Shown: positions 6,907 through 39,593 of the stretch, piece after piece
How positions within the stretch are numbered: the first letter of the stretch is position 1
Layout of the letters: each line of letters starts with the position of its first letter
Origin: Nitrososphaerota archaeon
Lineage (GTDB): Archaea; Thermoproteota; Nitrososphaeria; Nitrososphaerales; Nitrosopumilaceae
Direction of reading: 5' to 3'
Length of the DNA: 44,426 nucleotides
Assembly (NCBI GenBank): GCA_021323705.1
Contig: JAJPKL010000016.1
Location: 1 to 44,426 of the forward strand
Translations under genes and position numbers: made by a program
The notes under the pieces: generated by a model
Told to the model about the DNA's origin: nothing
What the model saw: the letters and a program-made list of their open reading frames with translations, nothing else
Database searches by the model: none

Positions 6907-7080
6907 ATGGCAGAGGGTGCAGAAGAGTCCATCTATGAAAGAGTAGCTCGACTTGAAGATGAAGTTGCTATGTTACGACATGAGGTGGATATAATGAAAG
7001 GTACTATGAGAAACAAGATAGTAAGATACGAACACAAACTCATCAAGAAAGGAACTGACGTTAAATCAATTATCGACTAG
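6907..7080 (+). CDS. Small predicted coiled-coil protein, 57 residues
   Basis: Short acidic/basic protein with a heptad-like helix over most of its length (YERVARLEDEVAMLRHEVDI), then a basic tail. TTTTTAAGA about 28 nt before the ATG is a good TATA box, so this is probably a real leaderless gene. Its last 11 bases overlap the 3' end of the convergent SirB1-like gene on the other strand. No known family is recognised. Confidence 0.7.
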   Translation: MAEGAEESIYERVARLEDEVAMLRHEVDIMKGTMRNKIVRYEHKLIKKGTDVKSIID

Positions 7081-7891
7081 ACTTTTCCTTGATATTTCTT
7101 ATCAATTCCAACACATAGTCTACATCATCTGCTTCTGGCGCAAGTTCTAGATATCGTTCAAGTGAGCGCAACGCAAGATCATTTTGAAGCAGTCTTGACT
7201 GTACGATTCCTCTATCCCTTATCTCCTCTGGTTCATCAGCTGTTAGCCCAAGAACCATGTTTATGCAGTGCATGGCAGATTTATAATTAAACGACTGCAT
7301 GTAGGAGTTTTTCAAATTTCGTGCAATGCGAATCAGGATCTTCTCATCCTCTATCTCGTTTAGGTACTCTGGATTGAATTGAACCCCGTCTCCATAGATG
7401 TTGCCAAGTATTGCCTCCAGATCCTCAATATCTAGCAATGCGCCCCTGTTGAAGGGATCAAGTATCATCTCTTCTGAATATTTTACCAAGAAGTGACCCG
7501 GAAAGCCGACAGGTCGGAGGTCTAACCCAATGTATCTTCCAAGGTATATGTAAATTATTGATAAAGTAATTGGAATTCCTTTCTTTGTGTCAATTACAGT
7601 ATTCAAAAAATTATTTCTTGGATTATAGTAATCGTCACTATTGCCTTCAAAACCTAGAGTTTCAAACATGTACTCATTTAACATGGAAACCAAATAGGTT
7701 GGATTTTTCACATCAGAGATGGAAGCTTGGAGGCCTTTTCCCATGGAATCTAACTTTTGAATATACTCAGTCAATACAAGGCTGGGAAATTCTAGAGTCT
7801 GGGCAAGCTTTAGGCATTTTTCCACAAGTGAATACCTAGGATTTTTTGCATATGCAATCCATTCTTCTATGAACGGATCAAAATTGTTCAT
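7070..7891 (-). CDS. SirB1/transglutaminase-like protein with TPR tail
   Basis: Protein of 273 residues with a Transglut_core2/SirB1-type domain (about residues 30-185: NNFLNTVIDTKKGIPITLSIIYIYLGRYIGL, then VGFPGHFLVKY and LDPFNRG) followed by a TPR-like C-terminus (NYKSAMHCINMVLGL..., LALRSLERYLELAP). The family is widespread in bacteria but lacks a settled function; the classical catalytic Cys is not obvious here, so enzymatic activity is doubtful. Its ATG overlaps the stop of the upstream 404-residue gene by four bases, so the two are co-translated. Confidence 0.8.
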   Translation of the reverse strand: MNNFDPFIEEWIAYAKNPRYSLVEKCLKLAQTLEFPSLVLTEYIQKLDSMGKGLQASISDVKNPTYLVSMLNEYMFETLGFEGNSDDYYNPRNNFLNTVIDTKKGIPITLSIIYIYLGRYIGLDLRPVGFPGHFLVKYSEEMILDPFNRGALLDIEDLEAILGNIYGDGVQFNPEYLNEIEDEKILIRIARNLKNSYMQSFNYKSAMHCINMVLGLTADEPEEIRDRGIVQSRLLQNDLALRSLERYLELAPEADDVDYVLELIRNIKEKSSR

Positions 7892-9102
7892 ATTCCTTTA
7901 AGATAACTTTCAGGGTTTTTGAGCTCTCTTGTAGTAGGTGGTTTTTCAATCAGAGTTCTATAGGCATCCTTGCCAATCTTGCCAACTAGATATTCAGTGA
8001 AATCCATTCCCATGCTTTTTCTTATCTGATATGAGGAAATGTCAGTGTTTGCAAATGTTACCAGGTAGTTGTGAAAGTCCTGATCCTCTTTTAGTATGTT
8101 TCTTACTACAAACTCTGCCATACCTTCCATTGCTGTAAATGCAGCGTGATGAGTCTGTATTGGCTTGAGCCACCTCTGGTAAATGTCAAGCAGTTGCGGT
8201 ATGGACTCTAAAATCTTTGGGTCTACTGAGACTTTGGTAAATGTCATGACGTCAGGGCCCAAGACTCTGACAATAAAGTTGTCAGGGTTTAGAGTGAAAA
8301 AGAGGTTTGCCTTTTGCGCTATTGGATATTCGTCTGGCACAGGAGGAAGCTGCAGATATTCGTAGAGGTTTTTTATTTTTGCGCCGTCTAGCGATAAAAT
8401 TATGTCTGCAAGCTCTTCGTTTATCTCATTTACTTGAGTTACGGCATTTTTGTTAATTTCATAGAGGTTTTTTTGCATAGAGTGAATCTGCTCTTCTAGT
8501 ATGGTCATCTTCATGGCTCCGTGATATCCAGAATTTACACGGGTAAAGTTAGACTCGTATGGTTGTCCCAATTTGTGCAAAATTATTTGCGGATAACTTG
8601 AAAGAACAAACTTGTTTAGATATATCGTTGATTCATAAAAGTCGCCATAGGTGGTAGATATCTGAGAAATGTATCCCTTGGCATACGTTGAATATACAAG
8701 AAACTGCGATACATTGCTCTCTGCAAGGTGCGCTATCTTATTGGTATCTTCATGCGCTATTGCAGTAAAGAGGTCGTCAACAAAGGCAGCTGAATTTTTT
8801 GTCGGAAATACCTTGCGGCCCTTCAAGCGCTTAAACTCTACCAAGTCTGGAAACTCTGCCTTGTTGTCAGGAACCGAGATTCCAGTAAAGTCGGATGCTT
8901 TTTGTGCACTGCCAGCTACAATCTGTTCATATATTGTCCTGATGTCGTCAAAAACTATCTTTGAGCCAAAGACTTCGGCTGCCTTTGACTGGGACTCTTT
9001 GATGGTTTTTTCTTCGTTTAATTCAACTGATATTTGGTCTAAAAGCGCAAACGCAAACTCTTCAAACTCATCCATTTCAAGTTTGATGATCTGCAAACCC
9101 AT
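7888..9102 (-). CDS. Conserved-looking protein of unknown function, 404 residues
   Basis: Soluble, helix-rich protein of 404 residues that I cannot place in a family. It has no signal peptide or clear membrane segment. Visible features are an acidic N-terminus (MDEFEEFAFALLDQ), a central EEQIHSMQ followed by a long amphipathic helix, and a C-terminal HHAAFTAMEGMAEFVVRNIL. EEQIH is not a proper HEXXH motif, so a metallopeptidase call is not supported. Its four-base overlap with the SirB1/TPR gene indicates a two-gene operon and a shared job. Confidence 0.8.
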   Translation of the reverse strand: MGLQIIKLEMDEFEEFAFALLDQISVELNEEKTIKESQSKAAEVFGSKIVFDDIRTIYEQIVAGSAQKASDFTGISVPDNKAEFPDLVEFKRLKGRKVFPTKNSAAFVDDLFTAIAHEDTNKIAHLAESNVSQFLVYSTYAKGYISQISTTYGDFYESTIYLNKFVLSSYPQIILHKLGQPYESNFTRVNSGYHGAMKMTILEEQIHSMQKNLYEINKNAVTQVNEINEELADIILSLDGAKIKNLYEYLQLPPVPDEYPIAQKANLFFTLNPDNFIVRVLGPDVMTFTKVSVDPKILESIPQLLDIYQRWLKPIQTHHAAFTAMEGMAEFVVRNILKEDQDFHNYLVTFANTDISSYQIRKSMGMDFTEYLVGKIGKDAYRTLIEKPPTTRELKNPESYLKGI

Positions 9103-10471: not shown

Positions 10472-11227
10472 ATGCAGACCAGCTGTTCAACACTTGATCT
10501 TGATGCAATAAAGAACTCTTTTCTGTTCTACAAGACCGTAACTAGCCAGTATGAAGACCAAAAAGTGCTACGATCAGTCCGGGAATTGGTGCCAAAAGAT
10601 ATTCCAGAAGACGACCTGCCGTCGCTTTTAAAGTGGTTCAAAGGTTTCATGACTTGGACGCCAAATCAAATTGCGTGTGAGAGATGCAGTGCGGATAAAA
10701 CTCCATATTTTATGCAAATCAAAGTAGAGGCAGGCAAGTCTTGGCAGGTGCGCAAGACAGAGGTTCATACATGCAGTAAATGTGGGACAAAAAAGATAAT
10801 CCCAAGGTATAGCGACGTACTAAAAATTGCTGAGACTCGATATGGAAGATGTGGTGAATGGTCCATACTATTTGGAGCCATTCTAAATTCAATGCACTTC
10901 AAATCACGAATTGCATATGACTATCTAGACCATTGCTGGAATGAAGTGTTTGCTGATGGCAAGTGGATTCATGTGGATCCGACATTTCAGTATCCGTATT
11001 CTCTTGACAATCCCCACTATTACGAGCGAAACTGGAACAAACAATATGTTTACGTTATTGCATTTTCGCCTGAAGGAATCGAAGATGTAACTGATAGGTA
11101 TACCGAACAATTAGCGGCGGTCCTATCAAGAAGGCAAAGCCTAGGTAAATTTGGAGACTCAAATGCCGGCTTGATTTCTGATCTACAGAGTCTTTACACC
11201 AGCATACAATCATTGTACGAACAATGA
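10472..11227 (+). CDS. Peptide:N-glycanase (PNGase)-like transglutaminase-fold protein
   Basis: Protein of 251 residues strongly resembling the catalytic core of eukaryotic cytoplasmic peptide:N-glycanase (Png1), which removes N-glycans from misfolded glycoproteins. The CxxC pairs C69/C72 and C101/C104 form the zinc site, and the triad sits in GRCGEW (C127), LDHCWNEV (H154) and WIHVDPT (D169). The downstream YYERNWNK, YVIAFSPEGIEDVT and RY also fit Png1. The PUB and PAW domains of animal enzymes are absent. There is no signal peptide, so it acts in the cytoplasm. Activity is inferred from the intact triad; a general transglutaminase-like protease is the alternative. Confidence 0.82.
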   Translation: MQTSCSTLDLDAIKNSFLFYKTVTSQYEDQKVLRSVRELVPKDIPEDDLPSLLKWFKGFMTWTPNQIACERCSADKTPYFMQIKVEAGKSWQVRKTEVHTCSKCGTKKIIPRYSDVLKIAETRYGRCGEWSILFGAILNSMHFKSRIAYDYLDHCWNEVFADGKWIHVDPTFQYPYSLDNPHYYERNWNKQYVYVIAFSPEGIEDVTDRYTEQLAAVLSRRQSLGKFGDSNAGLISDLQSLYTSIQSLYEQ

Positions 11228-11245: not shown

Positions 11246-12505
11246 TTATGATGATACTGCAAGTGGTTTGCGTTTCCCTGACTTGAGAAAGAACGCACAA
11301 GCTATGATTGCTCCAGCACCAATCTCTATGGCAGTAAAGCTGTAAAATGGCAAAGCATAGTTGATTGTGAAAAGCGCTGCTCCAATTATTGTTCCTGCAG
11401 AAACTGCGATGTTCTTTAGGACGTCATATATTGCAAATAGTGGGGGCCTCTTTTCTCGTGGAGTCAGCTCAATTTGGAGAGCCTCGTGTGTTGGGCCGTA
11501 ATTTACCCCAGTTGCAATCATGGCAAGCAATATTCCAAGAATTCCCCAAAATGAATGCTCAAAGACAAGAATTGTAGAGAGCGGCGCTGTAGTGATAACT
11601 GATATGAGCAATATTTTTCTCTTGTCAAACCTGTCAGAGACAATTCCAAGGGGAGTCCTCACAAGATTTGCAAACAAGAGTTGCATGCTCAAAATTACTC
11701 CCCACTGGAAGGTGTCAAGTTTTGCAATTGCAGTACCATAAAATATCAAATATGGACCTGTTATCGAGTTTGCGACAATAACTAGCACATAGGCTGACAG
11801 CAGCGGTATCAACACTTTTGGCAATCTGGATAGGTTTGACACAAAATCTCTGGAATAGTGAAAAACCAACCCAAACGGCTCTAGCTTACTGCCTTGGGAT
11901 GGCAAAAGATCTTGTTTTGTATGTAGCCTTGGACTCTTTTCACGCAGAAACTTGATCAAAAGTATGGTAGAGACTGGAGCCATTGCAAGAGATATCAAGA
12001 CTCCTGCTCTGAATCCATATATTGTGCCCATTGTATGAACTAGGTATCCCCCCAGGAGAGGTGCAAACATGGAAGGAATTGTGGTAAGTGTCTGGTAAAG
12101 CGAGAGCTGAGCCGTCCTGCTTTTCTGAATTGTGGCATCAGCCACAAGCTGCCTCCATGCGGTCGAACCAATTGCACCTCCTGCACCGATCAATATTGGA
12201 ATTGAAAGCATTGTCCAACTGTTTGAGAGATAGCATCCAACAAGCATAACAGGTCCTATCCATGATGTTAGGATTGCAATCTTTCGAAGACTGTGTCTGC
12301 CTGTGATGATCCCGCCAGTAATGGTTGATGGTATTCCAATTAGTGTGGCAAATGTTGTGATTATTCCATACTGGAGAACTGTTCCTCCAAGAGAAGTGAA
12401 ATAAATTGGAAGAAATGATAGTGCAATATTGCTCGCACTTGAAATCGAGGTTGCAACAATGAGTATAGTGATGTTTCCTCTTGGAATGAGCTCTTTCGTA
12501 TCAAT
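11246..12505 (-). CDS. Major facilitator superfamily transporter, start codon non-canonical
   Basis: MFS permease with about 12 membrane helices. The first in-frame ATG (12247) would cut off about 86 residues that clearly belong to the protein: the same frame stays open to 12557 and encodes hydrophobic segments (NITILIVATSISSASNIALS, FATLIGIPSTITGGIITGR) and an MFS-like GGIITGRHSLRK loop. No ATG, GTG or TTG occurs in that stretch. ATT at 12505 is chosen because TTAAAGTA lies about 24 nt upstream, the spacing of leaderless genes here. The substrate is unknown. It follows the UspA gene by about 75 nt. Confidence 0.72.
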   Translation of the reverse strand: MDTKELIPRGNITILIVATSISSASNIALSFLPIYFTSLGGTVLQYGIITTFATLIGIPSTITGGIITGRHSLRKIAILTSWIGPVMLVGCYLSNSWTMLSIPILIGAGGAIGSTAWRQLVADATIQKSRTAQLSLYQTLTTIPSMFAPLLGGYLVHTMGTIYGFRAGVLISLAMAPVSTILLIKFLREKSPRLHTKQDLLPSQGSKLEPFGLVFHYSRDFVSNLSRLPKVLIPLLSAYVLVIVANSITGPYLIFYGTAIAKLDTFQWGVILSMQLLFANLVRTPLGIVSDRFDKRKILLISVITTAPLSTILVFEHSFWGILGILLAMIATGVNYGPTHEALQIELTPREKRPPLFAIYDVLKNIAVSAGTIIGAALFTINYALPFYSFTAIEIGAGAIIACAFFLKSGKRKPLAVSS

Positions 12506-24613: not shown

Positions 24614-25198
24614 TCAACTAACACTCTGAGTGTTTAATGTAGTAGGCTCGACATGAAGCGCTGTAGAACAGAACTTGCATTGGTAGGAAAATTTTCGACT
24701 TTGCTCTATTGCATCATCTATGTTTTTTTGCATAGGGAGTAGTTCGGAATATTTTTTATTGCATGCGGAGCAAGTTATCTGAAAATGCGTTATGGAAGAA
24801 TTGGATTGAGAAAAGATTTCTCGCATCTTTGAGATTATTTGGTATATGTTGTATTTGAAATCGCCTCTCTGAAACGTTATATGTTGCTGTTCCTCAATGA
24901 AGCCCTTGATATCGATCCCCTTTTCTACAACTGAAATTACGGGTATGTTTTTGGCAGTGGCATATCCAATTTCTTGGTTTAACCACATTGTATTGGTGCT
25001 GTTGAATGTGATAAGAGCTATTGCAAGATTGGAGCTATTGAGACCATCTTTAATTTTATGTACTAAACTCTTTCCATCCTGTGTTATCCATTCTGGAATG
25101 TAGATGTCGATGTCTTCTAGCCTAGATAAGGTATCATAAAGCTCTTTTACGTTGCTTTCGTCGCCTGTGGCGTAACTTATGAACACTCTGTATTTCAT
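24614..25198 (-). CDS. TIR-domain protein with C-terminal zinc ribbon
   Basis: Protein of 194 residues. The TIR domain (about 1-125) begins YRVFISYATGDESNV and has the catalytic-position glutamate E76 in WLNQEIGYATAKNIPVI, as in TIR NAD-cleaving enzymes. The C-terminal 55 residues form a zinc ribbon (CSACNKKY ... YQCKFCSTALHV). Microbial TIR proteins often degrade NAD, some in anti-phage defence; whether this one is active is inference. It begins 21 bp after a four-CBS gene on the same strand, so it may be part of that transcript; no separate regulon box was found. Confidence 0.85.
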   Translation of the reverse strand: MKYRVFISYATGDESNVKELYDTLSRLEDIDIYIPEWITQDGKSLVHKIKDGLNSSNLAIALITFNSTNTMWLNQEIGYATAKNIPVISVVEKGIDIKGFIEEQQHITFQRGDFKYNIYQIISKMREIFSQSNSSITHFQITCSACNKKYSELLPMQKNIDDAIEQSRKFSYQCKFCSTALHVEPTTLNTQSVS

Positions 25199-36653: not shown

Positions 36654-39593
36654 ATGACTCAGAAAATCTTTGGAATAAAAAACGATTTAGGGCTGAGCAC
36701 AAATGCAATCAAGGTTCTACAGAGGCGTTACCTACTCCAAAATGAAAAAGGAGAAATTCTTGAAACACCATCACAATTATTTCGAAGAGTCGCACGAACT
36801 GTTGCTTCTGTAGAAACAAAATATGGACAAAAGGAGGATGTGAAGAAGACAGAGGATGAATTTTACAAAGTGATGTCAAGATTGGAATTTTTGCCAAATA
36901 CGCCAACTCTGATGAACGCTGGTACAAAGGTAGGACAGCTGTCTGCATGTTTTGTCATACCAGTTGGAGATTCATTACCCGAAATCTTTGATGCGGTAAA
37001 ATGGACTGCTATAATTCATCAAAGTGGAGGCGGAACAGGTTTCAATTTCAGCCACCTCAGACCGCAGGGAGATTCCGTAAAATCAACAGGTGGTATAGCT
37101 TCTGGCCCTGTTAGATTTATGACAATATTTGACAAGACAACAGAGGTAATAAAACAGGGAGGCAAACGACGTGGGGCTAACATGGGGATTCTACGGGTAG
37201 ATCATCCTGACATAATGGAATTCATTGTATGCAAGTCAAAAGAAGGGTTTCTTTCAAACTTTAACATTTCAGTTGCAATAACTGATGCGTTCATGGATGC
37301 AGTAAAAAGAAACAGCGAATATTCCCTCATTAATCCTAGAACCAACCAAATTGTAGGCAAATTAAATGCAAGAAAAGTTTTTGATCTTATAATAACAAAC
37401 GCATGGAAAAATGGAGACCCAGGAATCATTTTCATAGAACGGATAAACAAGTCAAATCCCACGCCCAGTCTTGGAGAAATAGAGGCAACTAATCCATGCG
37501 TGACAGGAGACACATTGGTATCTACAAACCAAGGATTAGTACAGATAAAAGATATTGCGGAAAATTATTCTGAGGTAGTAGTGGCTACGAACATACAAAG
37601 TGGGAACCAGCAACTACTTTCCTTCAAACATGCAAGGGCATTTAAGACAGGAAGAAAAGAAGCATTCAAGATCGAAACAGAATCTGGGTATGAAGTTACC
37701 GCAACGGCTGATCACAAATTCCTCACGAAAAACGGTTGGAAAGAATTGAAGGATCTGACAGTTTTCGACGAACTAATTTTGCAAAACTCTGAGGGAAAAT
37801 TCTCGAACAATTCAAAGTTGCCATTTGAATTTAATAACAAGAGGGATTGGGACATCGAGTTGGGAAGAGTCATTGGGTGGCTTATAGGTGATGTGTGGCT
37901 TGTGGACGGAAAAAACTTGAGAGTTGGTTTTACTTTTGGCAATGATGACAAACAAGTCTTCAGTTATCTTAAACCGACAATCAATAAATTATACGGCTCT
38001 GAAATAAAAGAAGTCGAAAGATCTGGAACCGTCGTTCACCTATCGTATCATTCGAAAAAGTTTATCGAGTTTTTCAAAAATCTGGGTGTTCTGGCTTGGA
38101 CCTCTGAAACGAAAGAAGTTCCGTCCTCGATTTTCACCGCAACTAGGGAGGGTGTTATTGGATTCCTACAGGGACTTTTCAGCTCCGATGGCACTGTTGG
38201 CTATGACAAAGAAAAGGGAAATTATTACATCAGACTCAGCTCCAAATCTAAGAAGCTTCTGAAACAAGTCCAGCTCCTCCTCCTAAACCTTGGAATAAAA
38301 TCCAAGATTTACGAAAGACATAGAGAAAGAAGGGTAACCTTCAGCTACAGGAACATCAAAGGGGAGCTGAATCTTTACGAAGACGATGGGTTACTCTGGG
38401 AGCTTCACATAAGCAAAGACATGATTCCGGTATTCCTTCAAAAGATCGGATTTCTCTGCAACAAAAATGAGGAAAAATTAAAAAAAATCAGAAACGTAAA
38501 CTTCCATAGGACAAGTTTCACAGACAGGGTTTTCTCTAAGGAATCCATAGGAACTGTGGACGTCTTCGACTTGACAGAGTCTGAGACTCATTCCTTCATT
38601 GCTAATGGGATAGTTGTACATAATTGTGGAGAACAACCATTACTTTCATGGGAATCATGTAATCTAGGCTCTATCAACCTATCAAAAGTAGTGAAAAATG
38701 GAAAGATAAACTGGAAAAAACTTGGACAATTAGTTAGCCTAGGAGTTAGATTTTTGGATAATGTAATTGATGTAAACAAATACCCAGCGCCACAGATAGA
38801 AAGGATTACACTAGCAAATAGGAAGATTGGAATCGGTGTTATGGGTTTTGCTGACGCCTTGATACAGATGAACATACCATACAATTCAAAAAAAGCACTT
38901 GAGCTGGGAGAAAAAATAATGAAATTTATCCAATCCGAAGGTCGTAATACTTCTCAAAAACTAGGAAAGGAACGAGGTAATTTCCCCAATTTTGACCAAA
39001 GCGTTTGGAGAAAAAAGTTCCGTACTCTACGTAATGCAACTGTAACAACCGTCGCACCAACGGGAACCATTTCGATTATAGCTGGCTGTTCTTCAGGAAT
39101 TGAACCTATTTTTGCTGTATCATATGTAAGAAACGTGATGGAAGGAACAAGACTACAAGAAACCAACCCGTATTTTGAAAAGATTGCAAAGAAAAGAGGC
39201 TTTTATTCATCTGAACTGTTACATGAAATCTTGAAGAATGGTTCAGTACAATGCATCAAGAAAATTCCAAAAAATATCAAAAAAGTATTCGTTACATCTT
39301 TGGACATTAAACCAGACTTTCATATAAGAATGCAGGCTGCATTTCAAAAATATACCGATAATGCGGTAAGCAAGACAGTCAATTTACCACAAACTGCTAC
39401 TCCAGATGATGTAAGAAATGCCTACCTGCTTGCATATAGGCTGAAATCAAAAGGTGTAACTGTTTATAGATACAACAGCAAACCAGACCAAGTTTTAACA
39501 ATTGAAATTCCAGACAAGTTATCAAATAAAAGCCAGGTTGTGGCCGATTCTGAATTTGGTGGTGGATGCGAGGGAATTGTCTGCCCACACTAG
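36654..39593 (+). CDS. nrdJ: Adenosylcobalamin-dependent ribonucleotide reductase (class II) with intein
   Basis: Reduces ribonucleotides to deoxyribonucleotides. Of 979 encoded residues, 376 are an intein (282-657) and the spliced enzyme has about 603. Extein motifs: LPNTPTLMNAG, SACFVIPVGDS, HQSGGGTGFNFS, RRGANMGIL, the NPCGEQPL active site (its Cys at 38625-38627 is the thiyl-radical cysteine by homology), and APTGTISIIAGCSSGIEP. The C-terminus GGGCEGIVCPH carries the redox-active cysteine pair. It needs B12, which many thaumarchaea make. The intein separates the active site, so the precursor cannot be active before splicing. The 75-residue gene is 15 bp upstream. Confidence 0.94.
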   Translation: MTQKIFGIKNDLGLSTNAIKVLQRRYLLQNEKGEILETPSQLFRRVARTVASVETKYGQKEDVKKTEDEFYKVMSRLEFLPNTPTLMNAGTKVGQLSACFVIPVGDSLPEIFDAVKWTAIIHQSGGGTGFNFSHLRPQGDSVKSTGGIASGPVRFMTIFDKTTEVIKQGGKRRGANMGILRVDHPDIMEFIVCKSKEGFLSNFNISVAITDAFMDAVKRNSEYSLINPRTNQIVGKLNARKVFDLIITNAWKNGDPGIIFIERINKSNPTPSLGEIEATNPCVTGDTLVSTNQGLVQIKDIAENYSEVVVATNIQSGNQQLLSFKHARAFKTGRKEAFKIETESGYEVTATADHKFLTKNGWKELKDLTVFDELILQNSEGKFSNNSKLPFEFNNKRDWDIELGRVIGWLIGDVWLVDGKNLRVGFTFGNDDKQVFSYLKPTINKLYGSEIKEVERSGTVVHLSYHSKKFIEFFKNLGVLAWTSETKEVPSSIFTATREGVIGFLQGLFSSDGTVGYDKEKGNYYIRLSSKSKKLLKQVQLLLLNLGIKSKIYERHRERRVTFSYRNIKGELNLYEDDGLLWELHISKDMIPVFLQKIGFLCNKNEEKLKKIRNVNFHRTSFTDRVFSKESIGTVDVFDLTESETHSFIANGIVVHNCGEQPLLSWESCNLGSINLSKVVKNGKINWKKLGQLVSLGVRFLDNVIDVNKYPAPQIERITLANRKIGIGVMGFADALIQMNIPYNSKKALELGEKIMKFIQSEGRNTSQKLGKERGNFPNFDQSVWRKKFRTLRNATVTTVAPTGTISIIAGCSSGIEPIFAVSYVRNVMEGTRLQETNPYFEKIAKKRGFYSSELLHEILKNGSVQCIKKIPKNIKKVFVTSLDIKPDFHIRMQAAFQKYTDNAVSKTVNLPQTATPDDVRNAYLLAYRLKSKGVTVYRYNSKPDQVLTIEIPDKLSNKSQVVADSEFGGGCEGIVCPH
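37497..38624 (+). mobile_element. Intein with LAGLIDADG homing endonuclease, in nrdJ
   Basis: In-frame insertion of 376 residues. Splicing motifs: Cys1 in CVTGDTLV (block A), TATADHKFLT (block B), VDVFDLTESETHSFIANG (block F) and terminal VVHN with Cys+1 (block G). Between lie two LAGLIDADG-type segments, RVIGWLIGDVWLVDG and FLQGLFSSDG, both keeping the acidic residue; the first has GDVW instead of the commoner GDG. All splicing residues are present, so it should be active. Codon use is visibly more C-rich than the flanking extein, consistent with recent entry. Confidence 0.92.

Follow-up and report, generated by a model that had tools for sequence, protein, structure and literature searches.

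Does an archaeon encode a peptide:N-glycanase (PNGase) of the eukaryotic cytoplasmic type, Png1/NGLY1? The question is raised by an open reading frame at positions 10472 to 11227 of the window, the whole 44,426-nucleotide stretch of Nitrosopumilaceae DNA analyzed here. Eukaryotic cells use this enzyme to free damaged proteins of their glycans, and a seemingly complete version in a soil archaeon would offer a handle on both its source and its use in cells without compartments. Cytoplasmic PNGase is described as conserved throughout eukaryotes (PMC2866665, PMC8997433), and our literature search, which covered mostly non-subscription papers, partly as excerpts, returned none on a Png1-type PNGase in archaea. 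The protein is a member of a known family in a domain of life for which the literature found does not describe Png1-type enzymes. The 1999 and 2001 founding papers of the transglutaminase-like superfamily may list archaeal members.

A Png1/NGLY1-type protein in the window

Searching all PDB chain sequences with the encoded protein (phmmer) retrieved mouse PNGase (2f4m, E 2.1e-30) and yeast Png1 (1x3w, 5.2e-29; 3esw, 9.3e-29), with an isoamylase (E 0.18) as the sole non-PNGase chain up to E 10, a likeness well above chance level. PNGases alone fell below E 0.1, so that by sequence the protein is nearer to them than to the rest of the transglutaminase fold. A profile of its relatives (A1) matched mouse PNGase at 1.7e-39 and yeast Png1 at 2.2e-36. 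At aligned positions the window protein was identical to yeast Png1 at 63 of 164 and to mouse PNGase at 63 of 173, and the yeast and mouse enzymes to each other at 84 of 171. Pfam assigned Transglut_core (2.4e-12) and Rad4 (5.4e-9), both above their cut-offs, and NCBIfam returned no curated name (top model 15.8 bits, cut-off 450); automatic annotation would probably attach a transglutaminase-like or Rad4-like label. As a control, the Rad4/PNGase-type model PF03835 matched none of 14 well-known genomes, and the generic PF01841 matched 10. The features of the gene are:

10472..11227, + strand: Png1-type peptide:N-glycanase-like protein, 251 residues, ATG start (open reading frame, Pfam, PDB sequence search, model)
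10499..10582, + strand: helices at the N-terminus (residues 10-37) that belong to the Png1 fold (AlphaFold2 model, structure alignment)
10676..10687, + strand: first CxxC pair of the predicted zinc ribbon, C69/C72 (yeast C129/C132, mouse C247/C250; invariant in 36/36 rows of alignment A4)
10772..10783, + strand: second CxxC pair, C101/C104 (yeast C165/C168, mouse C280/C283; invariant in 36/36 rows of A4)
10844..10861, + strand: GRCGEW with the predicted catalytic nucleophile C127, codon 10850-10852 (yeast C191, mouse C306; alignment)
10907..10909, + strand: R146 (yeast R210; alignment)
10928..10945, + strand: DHCWNE with predicted catalytic H154, codon 10931-10933 (yeast H218), W156 (yeast W220) and E158 (yeast E222; alignment)
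10964..10978, + strand: W165 (yeast W231) to predicted catalytic D169, codon 10976-10978 (yeast D235, mouse D350; alignment)
11018..11101, + strand: YYERNWNK...YVIAFS...DVT.RY, Png1/Rad4-type C-terminal half of the core (Rad4 model, sequence searches)

The first-pass annotation had read a eukaryote-like PNGase core from a series of short motifs, every one of which is present in the protein: C69xxC72, C101xxC104, GRCGEW (residues 125-130), DHCWNEV (153-159), HVDPT (167-171) and, in the C-terminal part, YYERNWNK (183-190), YVIAFS (194-199), DVT (205-207) and RY (209-210). The Cys-His-Asp triad follows the transglutaminase order, with C127, H154 and D169 corresponding to yeast C191, H218 and D235, which are called crucial for catalysis in yeast PNGase (PMC2791212); W188 aligns with yeast W251. 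The triad, the four cysteines of the CxxC pairs and R146, W156, E158 and W165 were invariant in all 36 rows of alignment A4. The latter four correspond to residues described as possibly essential for catalysis in Dictyostelium PNGase (PMC3502110). Note that A4 comprises the window protein and 35 of the 39 loci from a scan of genome contigs, without L066 (which has an unknown residue), L068 (truncated where its contig ends), L074 (a disrupted gene) and L073 (identical as a protein to L006, which is already in A1). C69, C72, C101 and C104 are predicted zinc ligands, and the ribbon would bind zinc as in the eukaryotic enzymes; together with the common flanking W, E and PRY residues, this predicted ribbon adds evidence of homology to eukaryotic Png1.

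Among genes of the zinc-ribbon form (zinc form), dN/dS was 0.083-0.116 in 6 of 11 pairs computed, indicating purifying selection; the remaining five pairs, all including the window protein, had saturated dS. The best 19-residue hydropathy value was 0.71 (0.39 in the N-terminal part), and no stretch resembled a signal or membrane helix, which fits a cytosolic enzyme with a reduced cysteine.

An AlphaFold2 model of the protein (36-row alignment, no templates) reached a mean pLDDT of 92.6 and a pTM of 0.90. In Foldseek, four PNGase chains ranked at the top (E 3.8e-15 to 6.0e-14), followed by XPC/Rad4 (6.4e-7 and weaker). Structure prediction had been proposed as a check, and the model was indeed closest to PNGase: VIA-align gave a Z score of 21.8 for mouse PNGase (2f4o; rmsd 3.2 over 223 residues) and 18.8-18.9 for yeast Png1, compared to 14.1-15.2 for XPC/Rad4 and at most 9.2 for transglutaminases. 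Since the match spans model residues 9 to 246 (mouse 164 to 418), the N-terminal helices are part of the Png1 fold.

Cytoplasmic PNGase (1x3w/3esw; 2f4m/2f4o) and the window protein are therefore alike in the triad, the two CxxC pairs, the R/W/E/W residues and the whole predicted fold. In contrast to Png1/NGLY1, no PUB or PAW domain was among the Pfam matches of the window protein, its stretch after HVD is three residues longer in the alignment, and it belongs to archaea, which lack an ER and ERAD. Yeast Png1 is likewise described as having no separate C-terminal domain (PMC2791212). Sequence, residue mapping and fold, along with the less decisive tree described below, back a PNGase core that goes beyond generic transglutaminase similarity, as had been claimed from the motifs, and confirm that the reading frame encodes a Png1/NGLY1-type protein rather than a generic transglutaminase.

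Predicted activity and competing functions

From the computed family membership, fold, triad, predicted zinc ligands and purifying selection we infer, with a probability of roughly 0.6, that the protein represents the Png1/NGLY1 family in archaea and acts as a cytosolic amidase, of papain/transglutaminase fold and stabilized by a zinc ribbon, that would free N-glycans from glycopeptides. If the reaction runs as in yeast Png1, H154 and D169 would activate C127 for attack on the amide carbon in the side chain of a glycosylated asparagine. The attack would form a thioester, with departure of the glycosylamine, and water would then give aspartate, the whole N-glycan being released.

Archaeal N-glycans are attached outside the cell, and a cytosolic enzyme would therefore meet short or unfolded glycopeptides on their return. 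More speculatively, such glycopeptides might stem from S-layer turnover or dead neighbors, for example, and be imported by an oligopeptide transporter; aminopeptidases would then finish the imported peptides, allowing nitrogen-rich sugars and peptides to be recovered. Archaea have no ER retrotranslocation, which counts against the physiological route; if the protein is active, cytosolic removal of N-glycans in such cells would imply a different original job. In favor of this reading, the window's own genome encodes an AglB/STT3 oligosaccharyltransferase (4.7e-29, WWDYG present) and a peptide-binding-type protein of ABC importers (SBP_bac_5, 3.8e-26). As a separate observation, this AglB (G000:C21:62301-64970, - strand; locus L178, 2-2671) continues in one frame into a fused cyclophilin-type peptidyl-prolyl isomerase at its C-terminus (Pfam: STT3 4e-27, Pro_isomerase 7.5e-39), a glycosylating enzyme to which a folding helper is attached.

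Nitrososphaera viennensis, of the same class, is reported to carry N-glycans that are built on a chitobiose-type core and proposed to store nitrogen, and Nitrosopumilus piranensis to show no apparent N-glycosylation; chitobiose-type cores are described as common to Thermoproteota, N. viennensis and eukaryotes (PMC12153357). If the protein is active, these cores would gain a matching common removal enzyme. Alg14-13 homologues have been reported in Thaumarchaeota (PMC8993221). Alg14 would support a chitobiose core in the host, and its absence from the window's own genome in a search with PF08660, a model that matched just 1 of 14 control genomes, counts against the proposed substrate. N. viennensis was absent from the titles of the 39 loci, so that the known glycan and the enzyme were not seen together in one species. 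Furthermore, Drosophila Pngl was first reported to be inactive and the Neurospora PNGase to be without two catalytic residues (PMC2866665, PMC8997433), and AtPng1 reportedly acts as a transglutaminase as well (PMC2866665). The claim of activity is weakened by such cases, as close relatives of Png1 can be without measurable activity or have others.

The reported activity of AtPng1 is also one of the points in favor of an unlikely but serious alternative, namely that the same fold performs another acyl transfer on cysteine, as a transglutaminase, a deamidase of Gln/Asn side chains or a peptidase on unglycosylated peptides, with a zinc ribbon that is structural only. Members of the Transglut_core superfamily are common and differ widely in their chemistry (note the matches in 10 of the 14 control genomes), and the triad and the R, W and E residues are also found in most zinc-less archaeal relatives. 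However, the closeness to Png1 is specific, both in the gap between Z 21.8 and the values of at most 9.2 for transglutaminases and in the PDB sequence search, and the four R/W/E/W positions with a possible catalytic role in Dictyostelium do not vary in A4.

A non-catalytic scaffold of the Rad4/XPC type that has kept the fold, for example as an adaptor in DNA damage or protein quality control, is very improbable: the Pfam Rad4 match, the next-best ranking of XPC/Rad4 structures and the likeness to the Rad4/XPC transglutaminase-like domain (PF03835) in the core fold and the C-terminal half of the core would be in line with it, but the triad is intact in 36/36 rows, whereas Rad4/XPC is described as inactivated (title of Anantharaman 2001, cited in PMC10318531), and the window protein, in contrast to Rad4/XPC, has a predicted zinc ribbon, ends ~40 residues past the core and gave no Pfam match to a BHD DNA-binding domain, even with E up to 1. 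With the bacterial PNGase F, a glycanase of the type we favor would share the proposed reaction alone, the model having a transglutaminase-type alpha/beta fold and not the double jelly-roll described for PNGase F (PMC8812541).

Archaeal relatives and the origin of the eukaryotic enzyme

The zinc form was found only in Nitrososphaeria, in Nitrososphaeraceae and the window's own genus (probably terrestrial Nitrosopumilaceae, judging by locus titles), in searches that spread outward from the window's own phylum and had Asgard archaea, bacteria and most eukaryotes outside the sample. Relatives of the gene occurred in 8 of 41 genomes and, within the genus, in 7 of 25, a patchiness that probably arose through loss. 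At the level of the order, 43 of 400 genomes matched at 1e-8, all but one of them in the genus or in family f8; the outlier (G462) carries a zinc-less protein, L109, and two of the 43 (G658, G680) carry broken copies. In an evenly drawn sample of the phylum, 24 of 398 genomes had relatives at 1e-10. Eight of these were full-length and came without exception from the genus or from a single further family in its order; the other 16 matched in the core only. The 39 loci of the contig scan were all from Nitrososphaerota by title, including Nitrososphaeraceae and Nitrosocosmicus; the scan used narrow patterns, from which absence elsewhere does not follow.

Among viral contigs, 39 stretches fit a pattern and none encoded a relative. 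Plasmids gave two weak partial matches (E 1e-5 and 3e-4; 29-34% of the query), the only bacterial matches seen, and phages one (E 2e-3). The window's own genome holds one copy of the gene; a second match at E 0.09 has a stop inside. Broken copies in Nitrososphaeraceae-type genomes (L074, L110 in G658, L111 in G680) reflect either lineage decay or assembly errors.

Other Thermoproteota encode soluble proteins of ~170 residues and longer membrane-anchored proteins with a Png1-like core and no CxxC pairs (loci L018-L024, L033-L035, L120-L131 and L146-L149, with three matches in genome G158). The short forms carry an N-terminal Y...DP...L, followed by G[KR]C, DH.W.E, HVDPS, YER.WKK and AFE...DVT. 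A profile of these zinc-less proteins (A3) had matches at 1e-12 in 26 of 398 genomes, in 8 cases via the zinc form, and retrieved mouse PNGase at 5.8e-25, Rad4 at 7e-4 and then a bacterial transglutaminase-like protein at 0.048. L109 (1482-2054, + strand), from a Nitrosopumilaceae assembly, has 191 residues and is very Png1-like apart from the missing CxxC pairs. It is possibly an intermediate, but its contig measures 4.9 kb, so that it may also be a contaminant. In the alignment, zinc-form archaea and L109 have in common an extended stretch after H.D, which is shorter in the mouse and yeast enzymes and in the short archaeal proteins.

A tree was computed from 42 rows and 101 columns of the core, with the zinc ribbon excluded and three generic transglutaminase-like proteins of archaea as the root. 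It contained the window protein with 22 zinc-form loci picked for diversity and two opisthokont eukaryotes (mouse and yeast); Rad4/XPC fragments and the weak plasmid and phage matches stood outside it. The zinc-form archaeal rows formed one clade (97/94) spanning two families. Mouse, yeast and L109 joined this clade (96/92), and the other zinc-less rows lay apart. The short and membrane zinc-less forms came together at 80/14 only. Phylogeny had been named as a further check on the PNGase assignment. In the best tree the protein fell with the eukaryotic enzymes and off the archaeal transglutaminase-like outgroups; on the bacterial side the check is incomplete, with the plasmid matches outside the tree.

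Eukaryotes and L109 were already together in the best tree, at 61/37 only. In AU tests, the constraint joining the zinc form and eukaryotes gave p 0.216, zinc form and L109 p 0.444, eukaryotes and short zinc-less proteins p 0.063, eukaryotes with short and membrane zinc-less archaeal proteins p 0.384, and eukaryotes with the zinc form exclusive of the window's genus, that is, with Nitrososphaeraceae-type rows, p 0.058. No constraint was rejected at 0.05, and the tests do not fix the branching order. Common descent of the archaeal and eukaryotic zinc-form enzymes is favored but not proven, and the tree gives no direction. That the gene bears on the origin of the eukaryotic enzyme, as first suggested, is a possibility and not a result.

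Tentatively, a Png1-type glycanase with a zinc ribbon may predate eukaryotes, having arisen in archaea whose surface proteins already bore chitobiose-type N-glycans, where it would have recycled glycopeptides, and been inherited or acquired by early eukaryotes, which would have used it for deglycosylation in ERAD and, once inactivated, as the Rad4/XPC fold. Under such an origin, L109 and the short zinc-less proteins from other Thermoproteota would be side branches that have survived. We give similar, and likewise limited, credence to horizontal transfer from a eukaryote into Nitrososphaeria, which fits any function of the protein and would mean that the gene is not from an archaeal lineage older than the eukaryotic enzyme. 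In line with such a transfer, the zinc form is confined to Nitrososphaeria in the searchable data, many of them from soil with eukaryotic neighbors, and the tree had just two eukaryotes, both opisthokonts. On the other hand, the archaeal zinc-form rows form a single clade across two families, the long stretch after H.D is common to them and L109, the zinc-less Png1-like cores elsewhere in the phylum suggest an older archaeal pool, and placing the Nitrososphaeraceae-type rows with eukaryotes was disfavored, although not rejected (AU p 0.058). Whichever direction applies, Png1 and Rad4/XPC can be rooted with the protein as their relative from archaea, and the predicted enzyme would make a small natural PNGase available for study.

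The locus in the genus and its surroundings

In most loci of the genus, the PNGase-like gene lies between an MscS gene and a gene for a major facilitator superfamily (MFS) transporter, which in the window is:

11246..12247, - strand: MFS transporter, convergent neighbor (Pfam, locus comparison)

Within the genus, the MFS gene was present in 6 of 7 genomes with the PNGase-like gene (the exception being G024) and in none of 18 without it (Fisher p 4e-5, relatedness ignored). Because the six genomes also lie near one another in a marker tree, a functional link is only an idea. Outside the genus the surroundings differ. The Nitrososphaeraceae locus L045 retains a convergent MFS gene (46% identity) and L044 part of one. 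Clustering the flanking reading frames of the 39 loci revealed no conserved operon: of the 31 loci outside the genus, at most 7 had a neighbor in common. This neighbor, an M1 aminopeptidase gene near the PNGase-like gene in 7 of the 31, mostly Nitrosocosmicus-like, is in line with aminopeptidases finishing the imported peptides.

The gene also keeps its position by MscS and a 404-residue protein gene in most loci of the genus. The latter protein (window 7888-9102, - strand; no Pfam family) occurs in 27 of the 28 genomes checked within the genus. In a marker tree of this protein (26 genomes, 10 with the PNGase-like gene; of the 28 asked, G017 had no marker match and the G024 fragment was omitted), presence of the gene required three changes. 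Such a number fits an old gene that has undergone repeated loss, although by itself it cannot separate gain from loss; repeated loss, which seems to have occurred, would make the gene dispensable, a point against the favored function. Recent transfer into the window genome alone is ruled out by the kept position together with the three-change tree.

Several further features of the window were observed. A second transglutaminase-fold protein, SirB1-like (Transglut_core2 and TPR), is encoded 2.6 kb upstream of the PNGase-like gene (7070-7891, - strand). Proteins of the CBS-domain and universal-stress type, named by eye from the translations, are unusually dense between 12580 and 26845. A TIR-domain protein similar to Thoeris ThsB (24614-25198, - strand) is a possible defence or NAD-cleaving protein, and a ribonucleotide reductase (36654-39593, + strand) is split by an intein that carries a LAGLIDADG domain.
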